Position numbers and translations under genes: made by a program | Part shown: positions 31,024-59,766 of the stretch, piece after piece | Position numbering within the stretch: the first letter of the stretch is position 1 | Layout: the number at the start of each line of letters is the position of its first letter | Assembly: GCA_020736575.1 (NCBI GenBank) | Contig: JAGPYM010000020.1 | Location: 620,001-684,000, forward strand | Direction of reading: 5' to 3' | Length of the DNA stretch: 64,000 nt | DNA from: Thelonectria olida | Taxonomy: Eukaryota > Ascomycota > Sordariomycetes > Hypocreales > Nectriaceae | The notes under the pieces: model-generated | Told to the model about the DNA's origin: nothing | Seen by the model: the letters and a program-made list of their open reading frames with translations, nothing else | The model's database searches: none

Positions 31024-31589
31024 TGTGATAGAAGGTGCCAAGGTATGCACTGTAAATTCAGTTGCCGTAGCAGTATGGTGGCTGACATGAGCGAGAAGGG
31101 GCGCAGCGCGAAATATAGAGAAAACTGACTGTTCTCATGGCAAGCCTCCCAGCACGAGGGCTGCTTCATTCAACCCGACAACTGGTATTACAAATTATTC
31201 CCCCACAACATGCCCGTCTGGTCTGTCCCCGCAAGTAACTGCCGAAAAACACCCCACAATTGAAAGAAAAGCCGCTGCCGCTAGCGGAAACCCCATCAGA
31301 CTCCTCTCGCTTGTGCCCCGCGATCTTGGAGATGAACATGTCCGATGATCCGAAACGTCAGCTCCCATAGGGGCCCGGGGAGCGGCATCATGCTTACACA
31401 AGAGCCGCTGACTAACGACATTGGAACTTACTCATGAAGAAGGAACATGGAATACGGCAAATATGTATATAAGCACATACCTTCGCTGCCTTGACACCGA
31501 GCAAGCAACCTAACTAACATTGTTATCTGCAACAAACAATCCGGATTTATCAAGCTACCTCCACAGCTACTCAGTACATCCTTCGCACA
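31024..31589. promoter_or_regulatory. Divergent promoter, hydrolase / lignostilbene oxygenase
   Basis: 566 bp between two divergent starts. TATATAAG at 31,466-31,473 lies 117 bp before the oxygenase ATG. A perfect palindrome CCGCTAGCGG sits at 31,278-31,287 and could be a Zn2Cys6 site. No CGGACTCC motif of the kind seen in other cluster promoters was found here. Confidence 0.5.
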
Positions 31590-33477
31590 ATGGAAGGTCT
31601 CTCAATCCTCCGTGGCAACCAGGCCGGCATCTCAGGATGGCCGGAAGCTCCTACTTCCTTTGAGCCCCAGGCTGTGGGTGCGACTCTCACAGGGTTCCAG
31701 AGACCAATCCGCGTTGAGGGAGAGATTTACAACCTCGAGGTTGAGGGCGAGATCCCAAAGAGTATCGCAGGTACCTTCTACCGCATCATGCCTGACCCAG
31801 CTTTCCCGCCATTCATCAAGGACGACATTGTACGCTTGCCCGGCTCCCATCTTCAAGAATAGTCTGCTGATTGGAGTTTAAGTGGATGAATGGAGATGGC
31901 GTCGTCTCGTCATTCCGCATCAAGGATGGCCATGTCGATTTCAAGCAGCGTTACGTTGAAACGGAGAAGCTCAAGGCCGAAAAGGAGGCACAAAAAGCTC
32001 TTCTCGGTGCGTCAAGACTTTCCAAAAACAGTGACTGGACTTTTTAGTTTCTCTCTCTGCCTCTCTCTTTCTCACCACAATAAGCCATCTCTTGGGACGC
32101 TAATACCCCATACAGGGAGATACCGCAACAAGTTCACCGATGCCATCGACTTCCGTGTCCGCACAGTTGCAAACACCACTGTCTTCCCGTTTCGGGATAA
32201 GATCTTCGCGCTCAAGGAAGATGGACCCGCTCACGCCATGGACCCCATTACCCTTCAAACCTATGGTGCATGGGATTTTGATGGGCAATGGGATAGCGAA
32301 ACCTTTACTGCTCATCCCAAGTACGACACCATTACTCGCGAGATGACGGCATTTGGATATGAAGCCAAGGGCGTCGCAACTAAAGACATCTTATATGGGT
32401 CTTTTGACAAGCATGGAAAGATGACCGAGAAGGTTTGGTTCACGGCGCCCGTGTGTGGCTTTCAGCATGAAATGGCAATGACAGAGAATTATGTGAGACC
32501 GCAGTCGAATCATCCCATCTCTAATTGGTTGCCCTGACACCTCTGCAGGTCCTGTTCCCGATCATCCCGTCCCATTGCGACTTGGAACGCCTCAAGGCCG
32601 GCGGCTCCCACTGGCAGTGGGAGCCCGAGCAGCCGTACTATATCGGCGTCCTTCCGAGGCGGGGAGCCAAGACGACCGACATCAAGGTGCGTGATCCTGC
32701 ACGGTCTCACTCCCTCTCCAGCTGACCAAGGCAAAAGTGGTTCTACGGCGATAACGCGTATATTGGTCACGTCGCCAACGCCTGGGAAGAGAACGGCAAG
32801 CTCCACCTTTACATGGCTTACGCTGAGGGTAATGTTTTCGGTTTCTTCCCTGACAAGGGCGGCAAGGCGCCGCCGCCTGGGACTTACCCGAACACGCTGG
32901 CGCGCTGGGTCATCGACCCTGAGTCGGACGAACTTCATCTATCGAAACCCGAGACTGTCATTAGCCGAGATAACGAGTTCTACCGTGTCGACGATCGTTT
33001 CGTCGGCTACAAGACGAGATACATCTTTGGTGCTATTAATGATGACTCGAATGGAGGCACCGACTGGGGCTTTGTCGCCCAGCGTATCGGAGGTACTGTC
33101 GACACGCTCGTGGCCCCTTATCCACAGGATCAATACTGACTTGCGTCACAGGAGGGTTCCCCCCCTTCAACTCCATATACAAGAAGGATTTGAAGACAGG
33201 CAAGGTCGATGTTTACCACAACGGACCCTACAGACTGTACCAGGAGCCTGTTTTCATCCCTCGAAGTCTCGACGCTGAGGAGGCTGACGGATACCTGATC
33301 TGCCTAACCATGAACTACGAAGATATGATCAGTGAACTCATCATTTTGGATACGCAGGACTTGAGCAAGCACGTGGCTCTGTGCCGCCTTCCACTGAAAT
33401 TGCGGATGGGCATACACGGAAGCTGGGACGATGACACCGACGTTGACGGCCACGGTGAGATGCCTACCAGGCTTTGA
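31590..33477 (+). CDS. Carotenoid cleavage oxygenase, lignostilbene dioxygenase type (519 aa)
   Basis: Six exons: 31590-31829, 31883-32006, 32116-32492, 32549-32686, 32738-33092, 33152-33477; introns of 51-109 nt, all GT-AG and in frame. The protein is a seven-bladed-propeller dioxygenase of the lignostilbene/resveratrol-cleaving branch: N-terminal EGEIPKSIAGTFYRIMPDP, then DGVVSSF. Four iron-ligand histidines are visible: H188 (TAHPKYD), H239 (FQHEMAM), H304 (GHVANAW) and H500 (GIHGSW). Enzymes of this branch, such as Neurospora CAO-1, split the central double bond of stilbenes (resveratrol, piceatannol) into two benzaldehydes with O2. No signal peptide is seen. This gene gives the best clue to the substrate of the whole block: a stilbene or other phenylpropanoid-derived aromatic with a styryl double bond. 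Full normal length, no damage. Confidence 0.93.
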
Positions 33478-37188: not shown

Positions 37189-37410
37189 AGGGGGCCGGTC
37201 TCCCGTGTGGGGTTTCCGGTGGGGTCGGGGCCTGTTGCTTGGGGACAGGGCTTGAGCATACGGGCACAACTTGACAACTGGCTCAATGCCGTGCGCCATC
37301 CAGAACACTGAGGCTTTATAGTTACCCAATGGGCGTCCTTTTGCTGCTCATACTTCCTTTTCGCACAACGACAAACTCAGCAGGAACAGTAGACAACAGA
37401 ACTCGCCACC

Positions 37411-38790
37411 ATGACAATGGATATATCCCCAACCAACAAAGGTGAAACATTGGACCAATGGCATGCCGGACCTCTCGAGTTCGAGGACCAAGAAGCCTGG
37501 AGACAACGTCTGAAAATCGATGTTTCGAAGCAGATCCGTCTCCGTGAATTGGCCCACATGCGATATGTGCATACTGATATCCCAGCCATCACGCAGTTTC
37601 TTCTTGGTAAGACTTCCCAATTCAAGAGGGTGGGGGACTCGGCCGAATATCTCCAACAAGAAGCTGACTACCGCGGAAGACTTTGGAATGAAAATCGCCC
37701 ACGAAAACGACAAGAGAACGTATTGGAAGGGATACGGGCCCTATCCATACGTGTATGTCGTAGAAAAGGGTGATAAACCCAAGTTCTTGGGAGGTACCTT
37801 TCGAGTTGAGAGCTATGCGGCACTAGAAAAGTATTTGGCGCGCTCCACGGGTGTAACCACCAGAGGGACAAGACTGATACCCGAGACACAGGGCAAGCAA
37901 GTTACCCGGCGCCAGTGCAATCACTGCTCTTGATGATGAACCTTGGGGTGGGCACATGGTCACCGTTTACGATCCTGTCGGTTATCCGATAAATTTGATG
38001 TACGGCCAGAGTATGGATCCGGTGAAAGAAGGTGCTATTCCCTCTCCTATTGTCATGAACTACGAAGACCGCAAGGAGCGTCTGAATGCATTTCAACGCT
38101 TTACCCAGGGACCGGCAGCGGTACACAAAGTACGTTGTCCTCAGACTGATCGGCTGCTTAACGCTGACTCTTCCAGCTTGGCCATTACGGGATTTGTTAC
38201 GCAGACTTCGACCAAGCTTATGAGTTCTGGATACGTACATTCAACTTCGTGCCTTCTGATGTGGTCTACGCCCCATCAGCGTCGGGAGAGGAGAAGACCA
38301 ATGTCGCTGCATTTCTCCATATCGACCTCGGCGAGGAGTACACGGATCACCATACGTTTTTCTTGGGCGCCTCGCCGAGACAACGAATCCATCACTGCTC
38401 CTTCGAAGTCCATGACTTCGATACCCAGCTACTGGGTCACCAGTGAGTGCTATCCCAGGCTGTGGACATCTGTTGTTGTAGTTGTGGATGCTAAAATGAG
38501 TGCACCTCAGGTGGTTGGAGCGAAAAGGCTACAAGTCTGTATGGGGAGTTGGGCGCCACTATCTGGGCTCACAAATCTTTGACTATTGGTGGGACACTAC
38601 GGGTTTCATGATAGAGGTAGCTGCCATGATCCTCCCATGCATCCCCATTCCACGACTAACATTACACTTTCTCCAGCACTACGCCGATGGTGATCTTGTC
38701 AATTGTACAACAAAGGTGGGATTAGCTGCTGCTGACGACAAAGCTCTGTCCGTCTGGGGTCCTGATAGACCCATTGACTGGATCAAATGA
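37411..38790 (+). CDS. Extradiol ring-cleavage dioxygenase, VOC/glyoxalase fold (356 aa)
   Basis: Six exons: 37411-37606, 37680-37830, 37892-38129, 38177-38442, 38511-38616, 38677-38790. The second intron (GTATTT, CTGAT branch, ACACAG) resolves an apparent frameshift and gives EKASKLPGASAI. Two VOC modules form the chain. The C-terminal one carries the likely Fe(II) ligands His198 (LGHYG), His267 or 268 (IHHCSFE) and Glu319 (GFMIEHYADGD), the 2-His-1-carboxylate set of type-I extradiol dioxygenases such as dihydroxybiphenyl dioxygenases. The N-terminal module (MRYVHTDIP onward) lacks an obvious site, as is usual. Role: meta cleavage of a catechol-type ring made by the upstream enzymes. No signal peptide. 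A metal-binding VOC protein with another activity cannot be excluded. Confidence 0.88.
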
Positions 38791-43530: not shown

Positions 43531-44739
43531 TTATGCAAATTCCACCGAGTTGCGCAGCGTCCCGATCTTGGAGATCCAGACCTCCATTTTCGTGCCAGAA
43601 GTGAGATATTGAGGAGGGTCCATTCCGGCGCCAATGCCTTTTGCCAGATCTAAGTCAGCAGGTTGCGGTGAATGAATGGTGGAAAGAGAGCAAGGGAAGG
43701 GCAAGGACATATGCAATGACAAATGAACATTCCGAAACAAAGCACGAGAAAGGATTGGATGTCAGCTTCTCTGTATTATGGTTCTTACCTCCCGGAGTGC
43801 CTGTCATAATGACACTGCCCTTCTGCAGCGTAGTACCCTGGCTCAAATACGAGACCAAGTAGGCCGAATTGAAGAGCAGATCGGACACGCTCTCATCCTG
43901 CCGCGTCTCGCCGTCGATGATGGTCTTGAGGTGCAATGTGGCCGGATCACCGATGAGCTCGGCTGCCACGAGACAGGGTCCCAGGGGCGCAAAGGTGTCG
44001 AAACCCTTGGAGAACCCCCATTGCGGGACCCGACCGGCAAGGGCAGGGTCGCGCTGAAGCTTGCGCGAGGACACATCGTTGCCAGCTGTGTACGCGGCTA
44101 CGTAGTCGAGGGCGGATTCGATAGGCACGTCCTTTGCATCGCGGCCAATGACCATACACTGGCGGTGGCTGGATGTCAGTCGAATCTGGCCGAATGCAGG
44201 TCCATGAAGAGCATGGTGAACCTACCAGTTCGCCTTCATAGTCTGCTTGATCATCTTGGGCGATTTTGGGGATCACTACAGGCGCATTGTGGCCGACGAC
44301 GGTTGTGTTGGGCTTCAAAAAGATAAAGGGGAACGGGGGCGGTGTTCGGCCTGTCTCCTTGACTATACCAGTGCCGTGGTCAACTTTGCTCGTTTATCTG
44401 CTTGTTCTCCGATCCCCGTCGATCGATACAAAAATCCCTTCAACGTCGAGGATGAGGGGCTCACAATTCACTTACTATGCTTCGCATAATTCAGCCCAAC
44501 ACACCGCAGCACCGGGACATCCTCCCTGGCCAGCGGACCAAGCAGTTTCTTGACCGTAACGACCTCGTCACTGACTTTGGTTTTACCTGTGATGTCGAAG
44601 GGGTCGTCGCCGACAATGACCTTGGCCTTCAACTGGTCCGAATCGGTGATTTGGCCCAGGTCGAAGTCTGGAAGTGGCAGAATGGGTTCCCCTCGCAGCA
44701 CTCGGCCATCCGAGGCTACGAAGCGGATGAGTCGAGTCC

Positions 44740-44872
44740 TGTTGAGACCGTATGACTAAGATGGTCCAATCTGCTGCTGGCTGGGATGTGGATATTTAGT
44801 GAGCCGTGCTCCTCACAGACACATGTAACTTAGACCTTTCAATATCACCACATAACCCTTTTTGTTTCATCA
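44740..44872 (+). repeat. Left LTR of the copia element (133 bp)
   Basis: Starts TGTTGAGACC and ends TTTCATCA; base-for-base identical to 50,731-50,863. Preceded by the target duplication AGTCC. Confidence 0.97.
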
Positions 44873-44884
44873 GGTTATGAGCCC
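44873..44884 (+). other. Primer-binding site, half initiator tRNA-Met
   Basis: GGTTATGAGCCC directly follows the left LTR and is complementary to the anticodon stem-loop of initiator tRNA-Met (GGGCUCAUAACC), not to a tRNA 3' end. This is the half-tRNA priming known from Copia and Ty5-type elements. Confidence 0.8.
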
Positions 44885-45591
44885 GGAGGGCACCATCTTC
44901 CTCCAACCGCAAAAGCTGAGTGTCTTCTGTCTTCCATTTTACTTTCCCTGGACAGCACAAGAAGTCGAAAGACTTCCTTTCACTGCGCATGCACATTCAG
45001 CTTACCTGGACCTACCTCCTTCTTTGGTTTTCGCAGAGTTTGCAAATCAGCTGATAAGATATGTCTAGAAATATCTCGAGAAGGAGCCTTTAACCACTGT
45101 GTCCAAGACACCAAATTCTAACCATCGGCCCCAAATCACCGAGGGATTCTCAGACCACAGCCTGGCCGATAAGCTGACAGATCTTGACCAGCCCCTCGGT
45201 CTGCCAGTCTTGACCTCGAGATGAACGGTATCACGCGAAAGTCGCCCGTGAGGACACGTCACGTCCCGTTATTTTTGTTCACATTGCGAGGTGGAGCCAG
45301 CCAACGGCTGGAAAATCAGCCTACTCAGGCTGACTCAGATTATGCAAGACCGTCCGAAGTGGTGTGTCAGATGGTCGAAATCAGATTATTGCCCCCTCCC
45401 CAGACAATGGGAGTGACACTATCAATCTTACTCCTTCGGAGCGCGAATCAGATGACTCCGATCTAATAAAAACTCTTGCAGCAGAGATCGCCTAACGAAG
45501 ACAAGAAGACTCCCAAACCCTCGATCTAAAACCTGTCGAAAGCTGTCTGTCCCCACTGTACCTCGATCACCAGCCTCTCGGAAAAATCGCA

Positions 45592-48500
45592 ATGTCACTT
45601 TCAAAGGAATCGCTCAACCTCGTTAGCAATTCCAGCACCATTCCAAAGCTGGAGCAAACCAGCCAGTGGCTGACCTGGAAGAGAGAAATGCTGGACCTCC
45701 TGGACATGTGCGGATACGGAGACCTTTTGACCAGGAACGCTCAACCACCAACAGAAGGGAACGACCTCACAACACAGATTGAGGCCTGGAGGAGCCGTCA
45801 GGATCGAGCATGCGGCGCCATCCGAAGTCGGCTCGGATACAACGCCCGAGTGTTCACCACGGGGATCCCAACGGCCCAAGGCATGATTGGTCACCTCGAA
45901 ACCCGTTACCGCCCCGTTGGAAGCGCCATCTTTCAAGAACTCGACCGAAGATACCAAGAACTCACTCTTGACTCTTGTGGTTCGGTTATGGAATATGCAA
46001 ACAAGCTTCGTCAAGTAAGGGCGGAACTCTTAGAGATGGATGAAATCTGCCAGATTGGGGAACCACACTTTGTCAACAAGTTCCTCTGCGGACTTGGTCC
46101 AGACTATGAAGTCTTCCTCACTGCTTTCAATCAGAACCATAACATCCTTCCTATCCGAGATCCAAACAACCGCAACGTTATCCTCAATGAGGCCGTTACG
46201 TTCGAAACTGCTATCTTTGCCGCATCCCAAGAAGAGGACAGACAAAGAGGGGCCACTGCAAGGATTGCTCAAAGAGCCATGGTGGCCCAGGATACCTTAG
46301 GTTGTGGACACTGTGGAAGAAAAGGGCACAACAAGTCAACTTGCTGGAAACTTCACCCGGAACTCAGAAGGGAGCATGAAAAGACAGGTCACGAGAGACG
46401 ACAACGAAAAATGCAGAGACGGGAGAAGGAAAAGGAGAAGACGAATGATGAACCGGAATCCGCTATGGCTGCGACTCCTGCATACCTCCAACCTGATCAA
46501 GCGAGACTGGCTCTTTGGCAAAATGACTTCCAAGGTCACCTTGGATTAATTGGCTCGTCATTCGGACTTTCCGGATCTCAGGCATCCCCCCAAGCTCGGG
46601 CCCTCGAACGGATCCATGTCTTGGATAGTGGTGCCTCCTCACACATTTTCTGCCGGTCTACGTACTTTACAGTCCTTCACAAGTACCAGGGACTCCCAAT
46701 CAATGGCATTGCAAACGCAACAGTTATGCCAGGAGGACGTGGAACATACTCCCTCCGAGTGCAAGGACCCAAGGGGCCACAGAATGTCACTCTCGAGAAC
46801 GCTCTGTATGTTCCGGAAGGATGCTCAAACCTACTGTCCGTGTCAGCACTGGAGAAGAATGGGGCAGAAGTTCTTTTCCGAAATGGGAAGGCAGTGGTCA
46901 CAAACAAAGGAAAAGTCGTCCTCACCGCAACAAGGATCTCAGGCGTCTATGTGGTCGACGAAGCTGAGGAAGATCACTTTCAAACCGCTTTGGCCTCCTT
47001 TTCAGTGGGAGACCCTCGACTGCATCTTTGGCACGAACGACTCGCACACTTGGGAGAGAGAAACATTAAGAGACTGATGAAGATGTCTACTGGAATTCGA
47101 CCGGACGAGTCTACATCAAACCCATGTGGAGCTTGCGTGCAAGGCAAACTCAAGGAATGCCCCCATGTTCGACCGATCAAGAAAGGAACTTACCCCCTGG
47201 AGTGTATTCATGCGGACATTGCCGGCCCCTTCCCGGAAGTGGGAGTAGACGGGAGCCGATACTGGGCCTGCTTTATTGATGACTTTACTCAAATGTCCTG
47301 GGTATATCCAATCAAAGAAAAGTCAGAGTTCGAAGAATGTTTCCAGCATCTGTTGGAGCAGTTCGAAAGACCGGAAAGGCGATGCCATTTCCTTCATCTC
47401 GATCGAGGAGGAGAAAATCGAAGCCACATCCTGATTATGTTCTGCCGGGACAGAGGAATTCATCTCTCGTACACAGCGACAGAGCAACACGAACAAAACG
47501 GATTGGCAGAGGTTCTCAATCGAATCATCATGGAAAAACTCACGCCCACACTGGTCAAATCCGGACTTGCTTTGAAATGGTGGCCATACTTCCTCAAGGC
47601 AGTGAACCACGTCCGAAATCTCTGTCCCACGGCGAGCATCTCCACCACTCCATACCAAGCCTGGTATGGAGATGTTCCTGATCTCAGCCACCTGCGAATC
47701 CTTGGCTCACGAGGATGGGCTCTACTTCCATCTTCTAAACGAAAGAAGATGCAATCCAGGAGCACTCCCTGTCAGCTTCTCGGCTATCAGGGTAGTACGA
47801 ACTATTTTCTTCTTGACGAAAGGGGGCGAGTCTTTGTGTCTAACAATGTCGTCTTCTCTGAAAACATCAAAAGTGTCGAACCAACACTCGACAATCTCAC
47901 GCATCAGATGAGTGACCAGAGACCATTGCAACGACGACGGGTAGACAGAGAACAGAACACCGGCGTGGAAAATCCTGTCATTCTAGAACCGTCGCCGCTT
48001 CCGATCGCGTCAGGAGAGGCAAATGGAACTGAGGAGATTGGCCGTGGAGAGACGACCTCGGATGAGTCCTCAGTGGGAGATCCAGGATGGGATCTGGACC
48101 AAGAGTCAACCAGGTCGAGTATCCATGTTGCCACAGATGAGCACGAGGCGCCACCGGAAGCAACAGAACGGCACGCAGAGTCTCGGCTGCCCGAGAGATC
48201 GACCAGAGGACAGCTGCCATCGAGATACATACTGGCCAGCACAAACTTCGCCTTCCTCGCAACAATTGCAAGACAATTGTACCTAGTTGCTCGCGACATC
48301 GACCAGTCAGAACCAAGAACCTTCAAGGAAGCCACTCAGGGTCCTCATGGAAGACTCTGGTGGAGAGGACTGAAGGATGAACACGGATCTCTAATCGAGA
48401 ATGGTGTCTGGAACCTAGTTACGCTTCCACCAGGACGAAAGGCCCTTCGAGGCAAATGGGTGTTCAAGCTCAAACGAGGGGAAAATGGGGAGGTTCTGCG

Positions 48501-49860
48501 GTACAAAGCCCGCTTTGTCGTGAGAGGATTCGAGCAAAGGGAAGGAATTGACTTCAACGAAACCTTCGCCTCTGTTGTCAAGCCGATGAGCTACAAGATG
48601 ATATTTGCCATCGCGGCGGCACTCGACTTGGAACTGGAACAAATGGACGTCAAGACAGCCTTCCTCTATGGCCTCGTAACTGAGGAGATATACGTGGAAC
48701 AACCCGAAGGATTCGACGATGGAAGTGGGAGAGTCTGTAAGCTCTTGAGAGCATTATATGGACTGAAGCAAGCTCCAAGGGTGTGGTACGAGACCCTCTC
48801 GACCTTCCTCGAGACACTCGAGTTCAAGCCTTTACTTTCAGACTTGGGGGTCTTCGTGAAAGGTCACACGTTCATTGCGGTGTATGTGGACGATCTGCTT
48901 ATTGCTGGACCCTCCAAGGACGAGATCGTAGCAGTCAAGCAAGCTCTGTGCAACAAGTTCAAGATGACAGACCTGGGCCCATGCAAATATTACCTAGGCA
49001 TGTCCTTGAGAAGAGACAGGGCGAACCGATCGATTTCCTTGTCGCAGACAACGTACCTGGAGAAAATACTTCGAGACTTTGGAATGGATCAATGCGCCCC
49101 TAATGCCACGCCAGTTGCCACAAGCAAATTCGGCGAACCAGACTCCGACTACAAGGCAACCGATGAACTCAAGCAGTGGTATGCGAAGGCGATTGGATCC
49201 CTGATGTATCTCATGCTTGGGACGAGACCCGACATTGCCTTTGCCGTCTCTCTATGCAGTCGACACCTGGGAAACCCAACCAACGAACATCAGACCGCTG
49301 TCAAGCGTATCTTTCGATATCTCAAAGGATCCAACAATCTGGAACTGATGTACCAAGGAAAGCTGCAACCTCTTCTCGGCTACACCGACTCGGATTGGGC
49401 GGGAGATCTGGAGACTCGAAAGTCAACGTCTGGATACGTGTTCAACCTTGGCACGGGCGCTATTAGCTGGAGCTCGAAGAGACAAAGGACTGTTGCCCTG
49501 TCCTCATGTGAAGCAGAATACATGGGGCAAACGGGAGCAGCGAAGGAAGCAGTCTGGTTGCGAAGCCTTCTCCAGGAACTGTTGAAAGAGTACAGGGAGG
49601 TCCCAGAACTGAAGACAACTGTGATCTTTGGGGACAACCAAGGAGCGATCGCAATGTCGAAGAATCCCCAGTTCCATGCAAGAACCAAGCATATTGATAT
49701 TCAACATCATTACTGCAGGGAGAAGGTCAATGATGGAATCGTTGACTTCCAGTACATTCCAACAGGCAAGCAGGTCGCTGACGGGCTGACGAAGGCTTTG
49801 CCGAAGGATCGCTTCTTACTATTTCGGGAAGCTTTGGGTCTCAAAGAACGACGATTGTGA
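45592..49860 (+). CDS. Copia gag-pol polyprotein (1,422 aa)
   Basis: One uninterrupted frame from ATG to TGA. Gag ends in a zinc knuckle CGHCGRKGHNKSTC (from Cys238). Aspartic protease follows at LDSGASS (Asp345). Integrase has the HHCC domain beginning at His478 (HLWHERLAHL) with CGACVQGKLKECPH, then the catalytic core (DIAGPF, EQHEQNGLAE) and the SRGWALLP region. Reverse transcriptase has KARFVVRGFEQ, QMDVKTAFLYG and the YVDD box (Asp1100-Asp1101). RNase H has GYTDSDWAGD and SSCEAEYMG, with the copia-type C-terminus KHIDIQHHYCRE. The order protease-integrase-RT-RNase H is diagnostic of Ty1/copia. Gag and pol lie in one frame without a frameshift, so their ratio must be set by another means. 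No inactivating lesion seen; it may be autonomous. Confidence 0.97.
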   Translation: MSLSKESLNLVSNSSTIPKLEQTSQWLTWKREMLDLLDMCGYGDLLTRNAQPPTEGNDLTTQIEAWRSRQDRACGAIRSRLGYNARVFTTGIPTAQGMIGHLETRYRPVGSAIFQELDRRYQELTLDSCGSVMEYANKLRQVRAELLEMDEICQIGEPHFVNKFLCGLGPDYEVFLTAFNQNHNILPIRDPNNRNVILNEAVTFETAIFAASQEEDRQRGATARIAQRAMVAQDTLGCGHCGRKGHNKSTCWKLHPELRREHEKTGHERRQRKMQRREKEKEKTNDEPESAMAATPAYLQPDQARLALWQNDFQGHLGLIGSSFGLSGSQASPQARALERIHVLDSGASSHIFCRSTYFTVLHKYQGLPINGIANATVMPGGRGTYSLRVQGPKGPQNVTLENALYVPEGCSNLLSVSALEKNGAEVLFRNGKAVVTNKGKVVLTATRISGVYVVDEAEEDHFQTALASFSVGDPRLHLWHERLAHLGERNIKRLMKMSTGIRPDESTSNPCGACVQGKLKECPHVRPIKKGTYPLECIHADIAGPFPEVGVDGSRYWACFIDDFTQMSWVYPIKEKSEFEECFQHLLEQFERPERRCHFLHLDRGGENRSHILIMFCRDRGIHLSYTATEQHEQNGLAEVLNRIIMEKLTPTLVKSGLALKWWPYFLKAVNHVRNLCPTASISTTPYQAWYGDVPDLSHLRILGSRGWALLPSSKRKKMQSRSTPCQLLGYQGSTNYFLLDERGRVFVSNNVVFSENIKSVEPTLDNLTHQMSDQRPLQRRRVDREQNTGVENPVILEPSPLPIASGEANGTEEIGRGETTSDESSVGDPGWDLDQESTRSSIHVATDEHEAPPEATERHAESRLPERSTRGQLPSRYILASTNFAFLATIARQLYLVARDIDQSEPRTFKEATQGPHGRLWWRGLKDEHGSLIENGVWNLVTLPPGRKALRGKWVFKLKRGENGEVLRYKARFVVRGFEQREGIDFNETFASVVKPMSYKMIFAIAAALDLELEQMDVKTAFLYGLVTEEIYVEQPEGFDDGSGRVCKLLRALYGLKQAPRVWYETLSTFLETLEFKPLLSDLGVFVKGHTFIAVYVDDLLIAGPSKDEIVAVKQALCNKFKMTDLGPCKYYLGMSLRRDRANRSISLSQTTYLEKILRDFGMDQCAPNATPVATSKFGEPDSDYKATDELKQWYAKAIGSLMYLMLGTRPDIAFAVSLCSRHLGNPTNEHQTAVKRIFRYLKGSNNLELMYQGKLQPLLGYTDSDWAGDLETRKSTSGYVFNLGTGAISWSSKRQRTVALSSCEAEYMGQTGAAKEAVWLRSLLQELLKEYREVPELKTTVIFGDNQGAIAMSKNPQFHARTKHIDIQHHYCREKVNDGIVDFQYIPTGKQVADGLTKALPKDRFLLFREALGLKERRL

Positions 49861-49864
49861 AAAC

Positions 49865-50600
49865 GTGCAAAGATGGGCATGGATGGGAGACCTACCATGG
49901 ACAGACAGGAGACCCACAGATCCAAGATTGCACTGAGCGTGAGGAACGTGCAAAGATGGACTGAAGTGGGAGACCTACCATGGACAGAAGACCCATGGAC
50001 TCAAGATTGTACCTGAGTTGAAAAGAGCGTGCAAAAGTGGGCTTCAGTGGGAGATCTTCTATGGACGGAAGAAGACCCATAAGTTCAAGATTGCACTGGA
50101 CTGAGAGGAAAGGTGCAAAGATGAGCTTTGGTGGGAGATCTTCTGCGGGTAGAAGAAGACCTGCGATCCCAAGATTGCATGGATTCGCGAGAAGGTGCAA
50201 AGATGGGCTTCAGCGGGAGATCTTCTGTGGACAAAAAGAAGACCCACGGGCTCAAGATTGCACTGGACTAGGAAGAAGGTGCAAAGATGAGCTCAAGTGG
50301 GAGATCTTCTATAGTTAGAAGAAGACCCATGGGTTCAAGATTGTACTGGACTGGGAAGAAGGTGCAAAGATGAGCTTAGAGGGAGATCTTCTGCGGACAG
50401 AAGAAGACCTGTGGTCGCAAGATTGCGCTGTATTGAACAGAGCGTGCAAAGATGGGCTTCAGTGGGGGATCGTCTGTGGACAGAAGAAGACCCATGGTTT
50501 TAAGATTGCACTACCGAGAAAAAAGGTGCAAAGATGAACCTAGGTGGGAGATCTTCTGCGGATGGAGGAAGACCCACTGCCCCAAGATTGCATGGAGCTG
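49865..50600 (+). repeat. 82-bp tandem repeat in the copia 3' region, nine copies
   Basis: Units begin GTGCAAAGATG at 49,865, 49,948, 50,029, 50,113, 50,195, 50,279, 50,362, 50,444 and 50,526 (spacing 81-84 bp). Each carries a GTGGGAGATCTTC-like block, an AGAAGA block that can pair with the TCTTCT just before it, then AGACCCA and CAAGATTGCA. Copies differ by scattered substitutions and small indels. The purine run GTGGGAG is the same as the polypurine tract at the right LTR. The repeats lie after the gag-pol stop and are not coding. Confidence 0.92.
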
Positions 50601-50723
50601 TCAAGAATTTCCAAAGTGCCTGAGTCGAGATGGCTCTTTCCCTGCAGTTTTCACCCACGAAGGTGTTTTTGGGGTTTTAACGAGACTCGACAGGCCTGCA
50701 CATGAAGTCCAACAGCAGCTCGA

Positions 50724-50730
50724 GTGGGAG
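50724..50730 (+). other. Polypurine tract of the copia element
   Basis: GTGGGAG abuts the right LTR and would prime plus-strand synthesis. The same heptamer recurs in most of the tandem units upstream. Confidence 0.7.
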
Positions 50731-50863
50731 TGTTGAGACCGTATGACTAAGATGGTCCAATCTGCTGCTGGCTGGGATGTGGATATTTAGTGAGCCGTGC
50801 TCCTCACAGACACATGTAACTTAGACCTTTCAATATCACCACATAACCCTTTTTGTTTCATCA
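50731..50863 (+). repeat. Right LTR of the copia element (133 bp)
   Basis: Identical to 44,740-44,872; followed by the target duplication AGTCC at 50,864-50,868. Confidence 0.97.
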
Positions 50864-50881
50864 AGTCCAGGGCAGCTTCAT

Positions 50882-51437: not shown

Positions 51438-53156
51438 TTATAAAGCTTGCTTGGCTCTCACACTGCCAGACGTCCAATACTGGACACTTTTAACTATTGT
51501 CCAATCATCCAGTGCTTCCCTACCCATATCCCTACCAAACCCACTCTGTTTTACCCCACCAAATGGCACATTTACATTAATCAGGCTCCAACAATTTACT
51601 GATACCTGGCCCACCTCAAGCGCGTCAGACACCCTCATGGCGCAAGCAATATCTGAAGTGAAGACGTAAGCCGCAAGTCCATACTCCGAATCGTTCGCCT
51701 TTTTTATAGCGTCTTCTTCGCTCGAAAACTTGGAAATTGTCTGGGAACTTTTGTTAGTGCACTTATTCATCAGAAAAAGACAATGGAAAGGACTGTGACC
51801 TGCAATCCACAATTCCCCTGGCTCTTCTTACCACCACGGGTCCGAAGATCTCTTCTTTGACGATGCTCATTCCCTCTGTGACATTAACGAACGCGGTGTG
51901 CGGCACAAAGTTACCGGTCCCCGTGGAGTGGCCACCGAAAAGAACCGTGGCGCCTTCCTCCCGACCCTTCTCGATGTATGACATGATTCTTTCATATTGG
52001 CCAAGGCTGACAACAGGTCCTTTGCTAACTTCCAGGTTTGTCGGGTCACCATGCCTCACTGGGGCTTGGGACTGCTCTTTGAAAAGACCAAGAAACTCGT
52101 CGTAAACACTCTCATGCACGTAGAGACGAGACATGAGAGCACAGATCTGCCCGTTGTTGGCACTGGAGCCGAGACTTGCCCAGAAAGCGGCATTTTTGAG
52201 ATCTGCATCGGGGAAAATGAGGCCGGGGCCTTTGCCGCCCAACTCAAGGGTGACTTTCTTGAGGTTAGTGTTTGCAGCAGCACGGAGAATGCTGCGCCCG
52301 GTGCTATCGCTGCCTGTGAAGGCAACCTTCCTGATTAGCATGTGTTCAGCAAGTGCTTGACCTGTTTCCTGTCCCAATCCGCAGAGAAGGTTGACCACGC
52401 CAGGCGGAAAACCGGCCTCAACTACCAGCTGAGCAAGCTTCTGCCCATACAGGGGTGCCAATTCCGGCGTCTTGATAATCAAGACATTGCCGCTCGCAAT
52501 AGCAGGTCCGAGCTTCCAACAGGTAATCATCCTATGGCATCGTCAGTGAGTCTTGAGGATTCCATGAAGCCTATACAGCTGCGCTTGAAGACTCACAACG
52601 GTGCGTTCCAGGGGATAATCGCGGCGCATATCCCAAAAGGCTCGCGGCGGGTGTACGCGAAGCCATTGGGGATTTCAAGTGCATCGCCCGTATTCTGACC
52701 AGCCAGTCGTGCATAGTATTGAAGTGTGTTGGCCGCATGTTTGACGTGGCCGCGTAGGGAGTCGTTGTACAGTATCCCAGCATCGATAGCCTCGATCGTT
52801 GCGAAATCCTCGGCGCGTTGCTCGATGAGGTCTGCTAATCGATTAAGGAGATTACCTCTCTGGATAGCTGAAACCGTCCTCCACCCTTTCAAGGCTGCTG
52901 CTGCGGCATTGACTGCAATATCAACGTCTGCCTTTTGCGCAGATGCCAATTTGGCCAATAGTTCCTCGTTCAGCGGGTTTCGCACATCAATGGTAGAACC
53001 AGTCTTGCCAGGAACGAATGCACCATTGATGAACAATCCTGTAGGAACTGTCGCGGGGTCAGTGTCGGTGTATAGATGGGATGGGGTTGCGACCCTGACT
53101 GGCGCCTTACCTCTGACAGCCCTGCCGTTGGGAGCCTGAATATGTGTCAACTCCAT
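51438..53156 (-). CDS. Aldehyde dehydrogenase (NAD(P)-dependent, 520 aa)
   Basis: Exons in translation order: 53156-52597, 52531-51832, 51740-51438; introns of 65 and 91 nt, in frame. The ALDH superfamily signatures are complete: IPWNAPL, IIKTPELAPL (Lys207 for cofactor), FTGSDSTGR, LELGGKGP with general base Glu283, nucleophile Cys317 in NNGQIC, then KEEIFGPVV and PFGGVKQSGFGRDMG near the end. The Glu-Cys spacing of 34 is the family norm. It oxidises aldehydes to acids. Next to a stilbene-cleaving oxygenase the obvious substrates are the hydroxybenzaldehydes that enzyme releases, as in vanillin or salicylaldehyde dehydrogenases; specificity is inferred. No targeting peptide is evident. It is divergent from the transcription factor gene, sharing an 888-bp promoter. 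Confidence 0.93.
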
Positions 53157-53290
53157 GTCGAAGCCTGCGGTTTGCTTGATAGGATTTCCCTCGAGAGTTG
53201 GATTCTTATAGTGATCGTGTCCAGTGGAGCATTGCCTGATGTTCCTTGGATCCTGTATTTATGGACCGTTATTCGGGCATTAGTTCTCTC

Positions 53291-54044: not shown

Positions 54045-56683
54045 ATGCGACCGCTACAATGCACGCATTGCAATGCAAGCTTCAAGCGAAAAGAGCATCT
54101 GGAGCGGCACATTCGCCGGCACTCGGGCGTCCGACCCGTCACATGCAGGCTCTGTTCAAAACCTTTCTCACGAAGGTACCGTACCTGTCACACTCTCGCA
54201 TAACGTTTTTTGAGACGCCCCTTATTGATCTGCTACATCACAGAGACGCTTTGCAAAGACATGTGAGCAGCCATCGAATTGACCCTGCCGACGCAGCCGA
54301 GATTCTGCAATCGGCATCCTCGGCACGTCGAAATCGGGCTTGTTCGAGCTGTGCTCTCGCCAAACAACGATGCACCGGCGGTGATCCCTGCGCGCGGTGT
54401 GCTTCGAAGAAGGTGCCGTGCCAGTATCGACCCCAACCCGTTTCTCCTGCATCCTCCCGACGTCGGGATGTGGCGGACAGGGACGAGCACGTGATGGCCA
54501 TTCAGATGCCCGCTCCAACGGTCTCGCTGCACGACAATGCTTCTCCGACGGCCAATGATGAGACCTCCTCCGCAGGAAGATTACCTGACTCCGGCCTAAA
54601 CGCAAATGATCCGGCTAGCTCTGGTGACGTTGGGGCCGACGAAACATCTACTCTCACCAGTAACGATCATCTCGAGATCGCCATGACAGCTTTCGATCAC
54701 AACAATGATCTCTTCAATGGTCTCCCATGGCTGATAAACGATGTTCCCTCGTACAACAGCCTCTTCTGGGTGACAGACTATCCCGACCCTCTTTACCCGG
54801 ACATCGGTTACCTTCCGCCCACGGATCTAGAACCTAGTCGTGGTGCCTTACTGGCGCCAGAGTCGACCTCACACGCATACCACGATGTGCCGCTGCAAGA
54901 CTCACGTGCCAACAGAACGGAGGGCGCCGGAGATTCCATTCGTGTCCAGTCCTCACGGCGCAGCCAGTGGCCTGATCAGGATTCCGGCGCTCAACTCCCC
55001 GTCTTGACTTCGGAGGATAAAAATGTTATTCATGCGCAACTCTTTGGCTATCTCCGCCAGACGACCCGAAATACCTTCCAGAAGGTTGCCGATTTTTATA
55101 CAGAACAAAATCAATGCTCAGGCCCCTTTATGGATAAGCTCACTTTTCAGACTTTTCTTGAGCTATACTTTGAGCATTTCGCGGACCACTTTCCCTTCCT
55201 TCACCCGACACTGCTGGAGGATGACGACATATCATGGGTTCTCCTCTTAGCAGTGGCTGTCGTGGGTGCTCAGTTTTCAGCTCTCAAGAACGCACCTCTG
55301 TTTGCCAACATCCTCCAAGATCTGCTAAACAAGGCAGTGAAGATGCATTGTCCCGAGATCCCGTCATCCACAGACTTGACGTGGGCACAAATCATACTGC
55401 TCCGGGATATCTGCATGCTATTCAACGGTGGTAAGAAGCTTCAGGTGGCGCGACAGTATGAGAAGAACAAGCTCCTCACGCTTTCTCGTGTGTTGAGAAC
55501 CGACATTCCAGAGCCGCCCCTCTCGACTGAGCAAACCCTTGAACAGCCCCTTCCTGAACAAGATTGGAAAAATTGGATCGCCGCAGAATCCCGGATTCGT
55601 TTATTACACAGCGTGTACTTTCTCGAATGTCTGCAGTTCTTGTTCCATGACATCCGGCCCTCGGTTGAACTGACGGACTTGACGAACAGCCTACCGTGTG
55701 AGGAGTCCATCTGGAAATGCCAAAGCGAAGAAGAATGGCGGCGGGCCTTGGTAAAGTGCCGGCATCAACAATCGTCGTTGGGCTACGATAGCTTGATTGA
55801 TTGGAAAAATGCACACAAAGCCGATGGTTATGTGCAGAAACTCTTGTTCGTCTATCTCTACACGGAGGAGAGATTGACTATGGAACGGCTTCGAAACTCA
55901 CCCTTCCGGCAAGTGCTCTTCCCGTCCACTTCTCCTGCCCCATTCCAGCAACAATGGGCAGGGCTCGTCCGTGTAGATCCTAGAGGGCTCTTGACAATCA
56001 TGAGAAGCTCTGTTGCCGGCGAACTAGACCGTCTCCAACCTGTACAAGAATCAGGCCTACCCCCTAGGCCGGAGTCCGGAGACCAGGATGTCTTATATAT
56101 CTTGATTCATCTACTGAGAGATGTACCCATGAGAAGTATTCTTGCCTTTGCGGGATGGCAAGTGGATGATGCACAAGTTGAAGCCGCCAAGCTGGAGTTG
56201 ACTGGGTGGGCTTTCCAACACGAACAAGTGGCCCGCCAATGCCTCCTTCATGCCATCACTGTTTTCAACATCTTGCGCACCAAAAGCCCCTTTGCCGCTT
56301 ATGACGCCCTCTCTCTACTGACAGCGACCTTATACATTTGGATGTATGATCAGTTAATCCAGGGAGAAGATTCTGAGAGTCGACATGCTGCCTCCAGGTT
56401 AGTTATCCGATCAGACCGTGTGTCTGATCGCCCGGCTTTTGAACAATGGGTCAACAAGGGAGGAGCCGCCCGTATCCATATCCCAGGTGTGGGAATCTTC
56501 GGCGGAAGAGATGGCCGGTCGCGTCTGCTGCACGAGCTGCGCAGGATATTGCTGTCACGCACAGAGTGGTCGAGGGTGTGCCAGGTGATTGCCATAGCAG
56601 TCATGCATCTGCTCCAAGATCAGCGCCCTAGATTTGAAGAAGATGTGAGGTCTGGGTCCATTACCTGTGCCTTGGATGCTTGA
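54045..56683 (+). CDS. Fungal transcription factor, two C2H2 fingers plus Zn2Cys6 (856 aa)
   Basis: Two exons: 54045-54175 and 54244-56683. The 68-nt intron splits the second finger; joining restores KPFSRRDALQRH. C2H2 finger 1 uses C6, C9, H22, H26; finger 2 uses C34, C37, H50, H54. A Zn2Cys6 cluster follows with Cys 77, 80, 87, 93, 96 and 103. The middle part contains [14 protein letters not shown] near residue 350, the mark of the fungal-specific regulatory domain. I chose the ATG at 54,045 because it includes the first finger complete. The protein is nuclear and DNA-binding. Placed at the edge of the block and divergent from the aldehyde dehydrogenase, it is the likely pathway-specific activator. 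The CGGACTCC motifs upstream of cluster genes, and one 75 bp before its own start, fit autoregulation and cluster control, but binding is inferred. Confidence 0.92.
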
Positions 56684-58061: not shown

Positions 58062-59717
58062 CTAATCGCTATTCTCTTCTCCAGATATTTCAACAACAAT
58101 CTGACATGTTCTTGAGTTATGACCAGCCTTACTACATATTCCACACCGCCTTTCCCTCGCCGCCCCCGACCTTCCCCGATCACCACTTCTCGATAATTCC
58201 GCCCTCACCTGCGCATCAACGTCTTTCTGATTAATCTCATCCTTCCCCTCACCTACAGTCATCTTCCCTCCATTTCGCAGCCGGGTTCTTTTCGCTCTGC
58301 GCCGCTTGCTAAGGGTCTCATTTGACTGTCGAAGGTCCTGGACCTCAGACTCTAATAAGCTCATCTTATGCATTATTGCCTTTGTTCCCTTAGTCAATGA
58401 CTTCAGGGCCTCAAGAATAGACGCAGGTGAGCTACTCTGATGCCTTTTGATTCGTCTTTCGAGGTATTCAGACTGTGAGCTAGCCTCAAGCACTGTCTTT
58501 GGTGTCTTAGAAACCCAAGGGTCGGGGAGGCCGACCTCCTCTCTAATCGGTGTTGGAGTCCGTAGCTGCACGTCAAGCTTCGATATGACATTTTCTGGGT
58601 TCAAGGGAACAAGTCCCGCCCCTCGAAAACCTCCCTCAATATTACTCCTTGTCATCGCGGCTTCGTGGGCGGCACAAAAGGCCGGGAAGAAGTCGGTCTT
58701 GGAAACATGGGTTATCGAGCACCTGATCAGATGCTCGATTTCTCGACCATATGCCTTTTTGAGCGGACCAAAGCACCCGACGTCAAGAGGCTGGAGTAGA
58801 TGAGACGAATGAGCCGGCATACACAGCGTGATGATGTGGTTGCCTTCGCAATATTTCTCAAAGTCGACCGAGTGGTGGCTGTCATGCCCATCGAGGATCA
58901 GAAGACGATAGCGACCGGTTGATCGGGCCTTGGTGTGTTGATCGAAGTGTTTGAGCCACTCAAGACCTGTATCATTGTCGGTCCAGCCATTATGAGTCGT
59001 CGCAATAGCCCAATCGTCCGGGAGGTTGCTTTCTTGGTACCAATTAGCGAGGTGATATTGGCCCGCAACCACGATGAACGGCGCGATCACCCAGCCTTCG
59101 GCATTGATCGCCTGAATGGCCGTAACCCATTCCCGGTTTCCAGGCTGCACTGATTTCGCCTTTCCACGTCTTTCTGCGCCCGTGACAACCATTCCGCTTG
59201 CAATGATGCCCATCATAAAGCCAGTCTCGTCAAAGTTGTAGATGTCAGCTAGGTTGATACCGTATTTCGCGATTGTGTTCTCCACGAGCCTGAACCAATG
59301 GCGAATAATGGCCGGATCTTCGCATTTAGCCCTCTGATAATCGTATCTACGATTAAAACGCGTCTTTAGGTCTGGTTGTCGCCTGACGAAGTTGGAAGCC
59401 CAGCGCTTGCCGACGGGTGACGCGTCGCGGTCGGCGAGCAGTCGGTTGGCCATTTCTTCCACACCACGAAGCCGAGGGGGAAACCCTCGAGAGTCTAGGT
59501 CGATAATATATTCAATAATGATCTGTTCCTCTAGATCGGATAGTTTGCGTGAATTCGGGATAATATCGCCTCGAGAAGGTTTGCCATAATATCGATCATA
59601 GAGGGTGCTAGGCGGGACTTTATATATCCTTGCAGCGGGATAGATGCGTAATTTTGGGTTGTTTCGAAGAGCCTGAAGGGCGAGGATAATATTTTTCTCT
59701 TTGCTTAACTGTGGCAT
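58062..59717 (-). CDS. Pogo/Fot1-type transposase (551 aa)
   Basis: Single exon from ATG at 59,717. The N-terminal third is a Psq/CENP-B type helix-turn-helix pair (ARIYKVPPSTLYDRYYGK, then the WASNFVRRQPDL region). The catalytic DDE/DDD core follows: Asp163 (NFDETGF), Asp276 (LILDGHDSH) and Asp312 (QPLDVGCFGP). The spacing of 35 residues between the last two is normal for pogo/Fot1. A long C-terminal part has basic and coiled segments, ending in a zinc knuckle CGICSKAGHNSRTC (Cys525, Cys528, His533, Cys538). It cuts and pastes the element by binding the terminal repeats. No stop or frameshift; probably active. Confidence 0.96.
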   Translation of the reverse strand: MPQLSKEKNIILALQALRNNPKLRIYPAARIYKVPPSTLYDRYYGKPSRGDIIPNSRKLSDLEEQIIIEYIIDLDSRGFPPRLRGVEEMANRLLADRDASPVGKRWASNFVRRQPDLKTRFNRRYDYQRAKCEDPAIIRHWFRLVENTIAKYGINLADIYNFDETGFMMGIIASGMVVTGAERRGKAKSVQPGNREWVTAIQAINAEGWVIAPFIVVAGQYHLANWYQESNLPDDWAIATTHNGWTDNDTGLEWLKHFDQHTKARSTGRYRLLILDGHDSHHSVDFEKYCEGNHIITLCMPAHSSHLLQPLDVGCFGPLKKAYGREIEHLIRCSITHVSKTDFFPAFCAAHEAAMTRSNIEGGFRGAGLVPLNPENVISKLDVQLRTPTPIREEVGLPDPWVSKTPKTVLEASSQSEYLERRIKRHQSSSPASILEALKSLTKGTKAIMHKMSLLESEVQDLRQSNETLSKRRRAKRTRLRNGGKMTVGEGKDEINQKDVDAQVRAELSRSGDRGRSGAARERRCGICSKAGHNSRTCQIVVEISGEENSD

Positions 59718-59766
59718 ACTTGGTGGTTGAGAAATAATTGATTAAAGGAAAATGAAGGTGGTTGGG

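Follow-up and report, generated by a model that had tools for sequence, protein, structure and literature searches.

A Ty1/copia element inserted behind codon 6 splits an FAH-family hydrolase gene of a presumed Thelonectria olida catabolic cluster

Results

The locus

Thelonectria olida belongs to the Nectriaceae and is represented here by one sequenced strain (assembly of 52.5 Mb in 165 contigs). We analysed a stretch of 64,000 nucleotides of this genome (G000:C79:620,001-684,000; hereafter the window), in which a gene of the FAH hydrolase family is divided in two by a long terminal repeat (LTR) retrotransposon of the Ty1/copia class (Table 1). Labels such as C79, C91 and C153 denote contigs of the Thelonectria olida assembly, with C79 bearing the window. 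The position of the divided gene, and the likeness of its surroundings to known stilbene and gentisate clusters, lead us to presume a cluster for phenolic or stilbene catabolism. An earlier note on this DNA had proposed that a copia element sits within the FAH-family gene, and this is borne out by LTRs with 0 differences over 133 positions and by AGTCC on both sides of the element.

Table 1. Features of the divided gene, the inserted element and the neighbouring genes (window coordinates)
Feature	Position	Strand	Remarks
FAH gene, start stretch	50,864-50,881	-	ATG at 50,881-50,879 plus five codons, MKLPWT
FAH gene, exon 1 remainder	44,476-44,734	-	opens with RLIRFVASDG
FAH gene, exon 2	44,226-44,362	-	ends at YEGEL
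FAH gene, exon 3	43,789-44,158	-	FAA_hydrolase domain
FAH gene, exon 4	43,531-43,637	-	TAA stop at 43,531-43,533
Element, complete Ty1/copia	44,740-50,863	+	6,124 bp; opposite to FAH gene
5' LTR	44,740-44,872	+	133 bp, TG...CA
3' LTR	50,731-50,863	+	133 bp, TG...CA; 0 differences from 5' LTR
Target-site duplication, left copy	44,735-44,739		AGTCC, 5 bp
Target-site duplication, right copy	50,864-50,868		AGTCC, 5 bp; overlaps last codons of FAH start stretch
Primer-binding site	44,873-44,889	+	complementary to anticodon arm of host tRNA-Met(CAT)
gag-pol frame	45,592-49,860	+	single, undisrupted, 1,422 aa plus stop; integrase precedes reverse transcriptase
Degenerate tandem array	49,865-50,596	+	about 8.6 units of 83 bp, in the interval from pol to 3' LTR
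Purine-rich stretch	50,721-50,730	+	presumed polypurine tract, read from the sequence; abuts 3' LTR
Carotenoid-oxygenase-family (lignostilbene/stilbene dioxygenase-like) gene	31,524-33,477	+	several pieces
VOC-type dioxygenase gene	37,393-38,790	+	apparently several exons, by eye
Cytochrome P450 gene	40,841-42,386	+	heme motif read by eye
Aldehyde dehydrogenase gene	51,763-53,258	-	same strand as FAH gene; two open pieces with Pfam matches
Zn2Cys6 transcription factor gene	54,047-56,680	+	best match Thelonectria olida B0T10DRAFT_518054

The two parts of the FAH-family gene belong together

Reading down from 44,734 to 43,531, the gene body comprises four exons that encode 290 amino acids in an open frame, separated by introns of 113, 67 and 151 nt that all follow the GT...AG rule (the acceptor of the third was set by homologues, at GGIGAGM). 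It is thus otherwise clean, as had been claimed. The open frame holding exon 3 matches PF01557 (FAA_hydrolase) with 134.3 bits against a cut-off of 23.9; by this domain the gene would encode an FAH-family hydrolase with an acylpyruvate or a ring-cleavage product as its putative substrate. On the far side of the element, the earlier note had located an ATG and six codons. The coordinates stand, while the count does not, there being six codons including the ATG.

Joined to these six codons, the body would give a protein of 296 amino acids, a length also found in 78 of the 120 listed homologues. This set consists of the best 120 of 2,946 protein matches and was obtained with a query carrying four residues (DLAK) more than the final model. 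In 117 of the 120, RLIRF occurs among the first 14 residues, which upholds the proposal that start and body are in register. The N-terminus of Exophiala dermatitidis P0002, MKLPWTRLIRFVA, is identical over 13 residues to the six start codons followed by the first seven residues of the body, and the N-termini of P0003 (MKVPWNRLIRFIA) and of Fusarium oxysporum P0001 (MMPPWTRLIRFVA) have the same register as the joined start and body. Because homologues share both the start and the register, the two parts can be assigned to one gene, an argument that involves no joining of the flanks.

The best protein match to the body among those listed reaches 85% identity in the search table and 91% in a global alignment. 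P0002, which carries the database label caffeoylpyruvate hydrolase, is 86.6% identical to the body and has the same N-terminus. No allele from another isolate was seen among the best 120 of 2,946 matches, all of which are at or below 85% identity, and a search of the genome at the DNA level for a second copy of the body returned only the one in the window.

The inserted element is a complete Ty1/copia retrotransposon

We place the element in the Ty1/copia class on account of its domain order and reverse transcriptase family, and the LTRs, the short target-site duplication and the primer-binding site agree with this. In the polyprotein, Pfam locates gag_pre-integrs at residues 452-519, rve at 535-630 and RVT_2 at 937-1175; RVT_2, gag_pre-integrs, Pol_BBD and SH3 score above the Pfam cut-off, and rve and Retrotran_gag_2 below it. 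When the LTRs are compared over 134 bp a single mismatch appears, since one base beyond the LTR is then included. The part of the primer-binding site that was tested is its 13-base core (44,873-44,885), which has 30 exact matches in the genome (the reversed pattern, used as a control, has 1) and is present in six tRNA-Met(CAT) genes confirmed by ARAGORN. Priming from within a tRNA is known for copia elements. The tandem array is identical in all six young copies of the element described below and is retained, in diverged form, in older ones; diverged arrays lie in four other places.

The closest relative among the matches listed is a polyprotein of Fusarium falciforme (FALCPG4_18898, P0127), 95.1% identical over its whole length, and two from Fusarium oxysporum (P0128 and P0130) are 90.0% and 89.2% identical, likewise over the whole length. 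Compared at the protein level, the three Fusarium polyproteins are of nearly equal length and have the same kind of domains, while the host differs. Such an identity of 95% to a protein from another genus is suggestive, and only suggestive, of horizontal transfer of the element. Fungal copia elements have been divided into the clades FunCo1-27, and FunCo1 is reported to have a primer-binding site complementary to an internal region of tRNA-Lys (PMC5445492); the Thelonectria element differs from this in that its site fits tRNA-Met(CAT).

The insertion leaves a six-residue frame and a body lacking an early start codon

Translation from the native ATG would give MKLPWT and run at once into an in-frame TGA, inside the LTR. 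On the body side, the frame consists of a TAG, seven sense codons without an ATG and then the first codon of the gene body. Within the body the first in-frame ATG is codon 134 (residue 140 in the numbering of the 296-residue protein), past the YEGEL motif, which we take to bear metal ligands in this superfamily. Neither the start codon nor, presumably, the promoter is still joined to the gene body. Given the early stop, the lack of an early alternative ATG and the position of the first ATG beyond YEGEL, a functional FAH product appears unlikely, and loss of the gene in the sequenced strain is, at the level of the sequence, well supported.

Sister copies indicate recent transposition

Dating from the LTR pair was rejected as weak, since 0 differences in 133 positions allows about 2% divergence by the rule of three. 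Age was therefore judged by comparing whole copies rather than the LTR pair. An LTR search of the genome with a 134-base query produced at least 41 matches, among them 14 at 100% and 27 at 83-96% identity. Four full-length copies (L009 on C153, L010 on C115, L012 on C98 and L013 on C93) differ from the window copy at 0 of 6,124 bases, and a fifth (L011 on C105) at 1 of 6,124, a G>A change. The insertion is hence fresh, as had been claimed, although it is these counts (0, 0, 0, 0 and 1 differences in the five sister copies) rather than the LTRs that carry the point. One more copy, on C82, is cut short by the contig end and is identical across the 885 bases compared.

All six full-length copies, the window copy included, contain the same open frame of 1,454 codons (stop to stop), and each is flanked by its own perfect and distinct 5-bp duplication; a solo LTR on C102 also has one of its own. 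Because six full copies each have a different perfect duplication, chance likeness of the AGTCC flanks can be excluded. The six near-identical copies represent, to judge from their sequences, a recent burst, and this near identity suggests recent activity of the element. The window element lacks a signature like that of repeat-induced point mutation (RIP), with TpA/ApT at 0.48 and (CpA+TpG)/(ApC+GpT) at 1.30, as does a relative on C132 that is 5.4% diverged. In an older copy (L020), which differs at 323 of 6,020 aligned positions, there was no RIP excess (C>T/T>C 65/59, G>A/A>G 50/52).

Neighbouring genes and comparison with known clusters

The genes around the FAH gene were judged from reading frames and domains, in part of the window's frames. 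In the PDB, the carotenoid-oxygenase-family gene matches entries that bear the names carotenoid oxygenase 1 and lignostilbene dioxygenase, and one exon of the VOC gene resembles 2,3-dihydroxybiphenyl 1,2-dioxygenase (E 4e-5). A further C-terminal piece of the aldehyde dehydrogenase, read by eye, extends below 51,763, and esterase-like genes also lie nearby. The Zn2Cys6 factor is 100% identical to its best match over 93% in the search table, while a global alignment gives 96.3% over 855 positions, the lower figure probably being due to differing starts of the gene models. By reading frames and domains only, no clear break was seen in the domain-bearing neighbours.

In Aspergillus fumigatus a gentisate catabolism (GC) cluster has been described that includes a stilbene dioxygenase (PMC3914699), and PMC10735191 cites Gluck-Thaler et al. 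2018 on stilbene/gentisate clusters. By position and domains, the window shares with the GC cluster the combination of a stilbene-dioxygenase-like gene, an FAH-family gene, an aldehyde dehydrogenase and a C6 factor. Unlike that cluster, it has a VOC dioxygenase and a P450, and contig C79 has no gentisate-dioxygenase match. A genome search for gentisate 1,2-dioxygenase (TIGR02272) found matches only on C3, C91 and C133, none of which reaches the curated cut-off of the family, and no salicylate hydroxylase was seen among the window frames scanned, a scan that covered part of the frames. The only candidate for ring cleavage found in the cluster looks like an extradiol dioxygenase of the VOC type rather than a gentisate dioxygenase.

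Other FAH-family genes in the genome

A genome search with PF01557 gave 24 matches, which we grouped into 15 loci including the window gene. The suggestion that a second FAH enzyme might exist elsewhere is therefore met by 14 candidate loci at the level of sequence, with their equivalence to the window gene putative. Three of the 14 have a gentisate-dioxygenase-like match no more than 10 kb away. Those on C133 and C3 are within about 2 kb of such matches, and the match on C3 reads through five stops, which may represent introns or damage.

Four of the 14 loci were compared with the window gene, and the closest was the one on C91, which encodes 298 amino acids with 70% identity to the window body; its first two intron positions appear by eye to be the same. 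The C91 locus (L032, 290,000-299,900, continuing to 307,013) contains the FAH gene, a salicylate-hydroxylase-like FAD monooxygenase and a gene that by eye is transcription-factor-like, together with a gentisate-dioxygenase-like match at 299,552-300,609 and a stilbene-dioxygenase-like gene at 305,428-307,013. It resembles the GC cluster more than the window cluster does.

Discussion

We consider it very probable that a recent insertion of a complete Ty1/copia element after codon 6 knocked out an FAH-family gene of a presumed catabolic cluster. A recently active element would have entered the gene in the opposite orientation, duplicating AGTCC and leaving a six-residue peptide before a stop, with the rest of the gene severed from its start codon and presumably from its promoter. 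Both the absence of a functional enzyme and the role that the enzyme would have had are inferred; if it acted as the terminal hydrolase of the pathway, as the earlier note supposed, its loss could lead to accumulation of a ring-opened acid. That role is conjectural, the more so as the one ring-cleaving candidate found is of the extradiol and not of the gentisate type, and so is the note's proposal that the loss is new to this isolate. That no clear break was seen in the domain-bearing neighbours makes an isolated recent insertion more likely than a decay of the whole cluster.

Several points weigh against this account. Transcription from the antisense LTR might permit a non-ATG start (for example at GTG-CTG codons near the beginning of the body), or splicing might occur across the element, and either could yield a working or partly working enzyme. 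The four-exon body is intact and free of later damage, which fits continued function as well as it fits a very recent loss. However, the in-frame TAG, the lack of an ATG up to the junction, a first ATG lying past the conserved YEGEL motif and an antisense element of 6.1 kb leave residual activity only a slim chance. It must also be borne in mind that assembly and polishing can even out identical repeats, so that the count of 0-1 differences may be too low. With six near-identical copies in the assembly, it is conceivable that a copia copy was mis-joined into the FAH gene; yet the junctions fall exactly at the LTR ends, the 5-bp duplication is shared with no other copy and the two flanks are parts of one gene in register, and an assembly artefact is to our minds scarcely credible.

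An insertion that is real and nonetheless of minor effect, through redundancy with the C91 gene or other FAH genes, would be compatible with the knock-out, and we regard it as an open possibility that falls somewhat short of being probable. In its favour are the 14 other FAH-domain loci, and on C91 a gene with 70% identity, apparently the same first two intron positions and catabolic-type neighbours. On the other hand, a long branch separates the C91 gene from the window gene in the tree described below, and the substrates of the two enzymes may differ because the ring-cleaving candidate of the window cluster is of a different kind. The other FAH genes may or may not compensate.

The knock-out itself is an ordinary one, in which a known element family disrupts a known enzyme family. 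It is a clean case in which a retrotransposon has hit a single gene of a presumed catabolic cluster in a fungus, with no clear break seen in the neighbours, and our literature searches returned no account of the disrupted locus among the matches listed. If other isolates bear an empty allele, they would constitute a natural experiment on the need for the FAH step in phenolic breakdown. The near-identical copies in addition mark recent transposition, and this in a genome whose AT-rich blocks are RIP-like.

The origin of the FAH gene was examined in a 68-row tree (the window and C91 genes of this genome and 66 of the listed 120 homologues), with rows chosen by score and a midpoint root. The window gene forms a pair (100/100) with Fusarium oxysporum P0001, within a set of 20 (97/95). 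Two rows of this set are nameless, and the other named rows are from Exophiala, Fonsecaea, Cladophialophora and Rhinocladiella, which we take to be black yeasts of the Chaetothyriales; the rows from Colletotrichum and Pyricularia are placed outside it. This arrangement, seen for the one cluster gene examined, hints at transfer of the FAH gene between black yeasts and Nectriaceae. A broader scenario can be drawn, in which a Fusarium-type copia element, possibly of horizontal origin, escaping RIP and preferring the 5' ends of genes, underwent a very recent burst in Thelonectria and in such bursts resets promoters and knocks out genes, including an FAH cluster gene gained from a black-yeast-like donor; taken as a whole, we hold this to be improbable.

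Eight young insertion sites were examined: those of the six full copies, the solo LTR on C102 and the copy cut by a contig end on C82. By eye, seven of the eight lie within about 500 bp of an apparent 5' end of a gene, the opsin-like site described below being inside a coding region and the C82 site not judgeable. In a control based on predicted genes, a predicted 5' end lay no more than 500 bp away at four of the eight sites, where the base rate was 0.315 (6,809 positions, some of them in these same flanks at over 1 kb from a site); the difference is not significant. Among the nearest predicted genes within 2.5 kb on each side, 11 of 13 point their 5' end at the site (one-sided binomial ~0.01), with a gene predictor crude enough to have missed exon 1 of the FAH gene. 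A preference of young insertions for 5' ends is perhaps a lead.

The C98 copy lies between two pieces (L027 3,748-3,999 and L028 2-325) that by eye resemble one opsin-family gene. Near this junction is a piece matching Bac_rhodopsin with E 2e-4, below the cut-off, and two junction-adjacent pieces are without a Pfam match; the burst may thus have disrupted a second, opsin-like gene. The C153 copy has a cytochrome b5/FMN dehydrogenase gene beside it and lies at the 5' end of that gene, those on C105 and C93 are upstream of transcription-factor-like genes (the match on C105 being below the cut-off), the C115 copy is upstream of a Clr5/ankyrin gene and the solo LTR on C102 is upstream of a frame without a Pfam match.

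Within the window, AT-rich blocks at 9-25 kb and 60-63 kb (GC content 0.26-0.30) flank the gene-rich part and have a RIP-like signature, with TpA/ApT at 1.47-1.48 and (CpA+TpG)/(ApC+GpT) at 0.50-0.65. The window also contains a DNA transposase, in an open frame of 559 amino acids at 58,062-59,741 with DDE_1 and Tc5-type DNA-binding domains.

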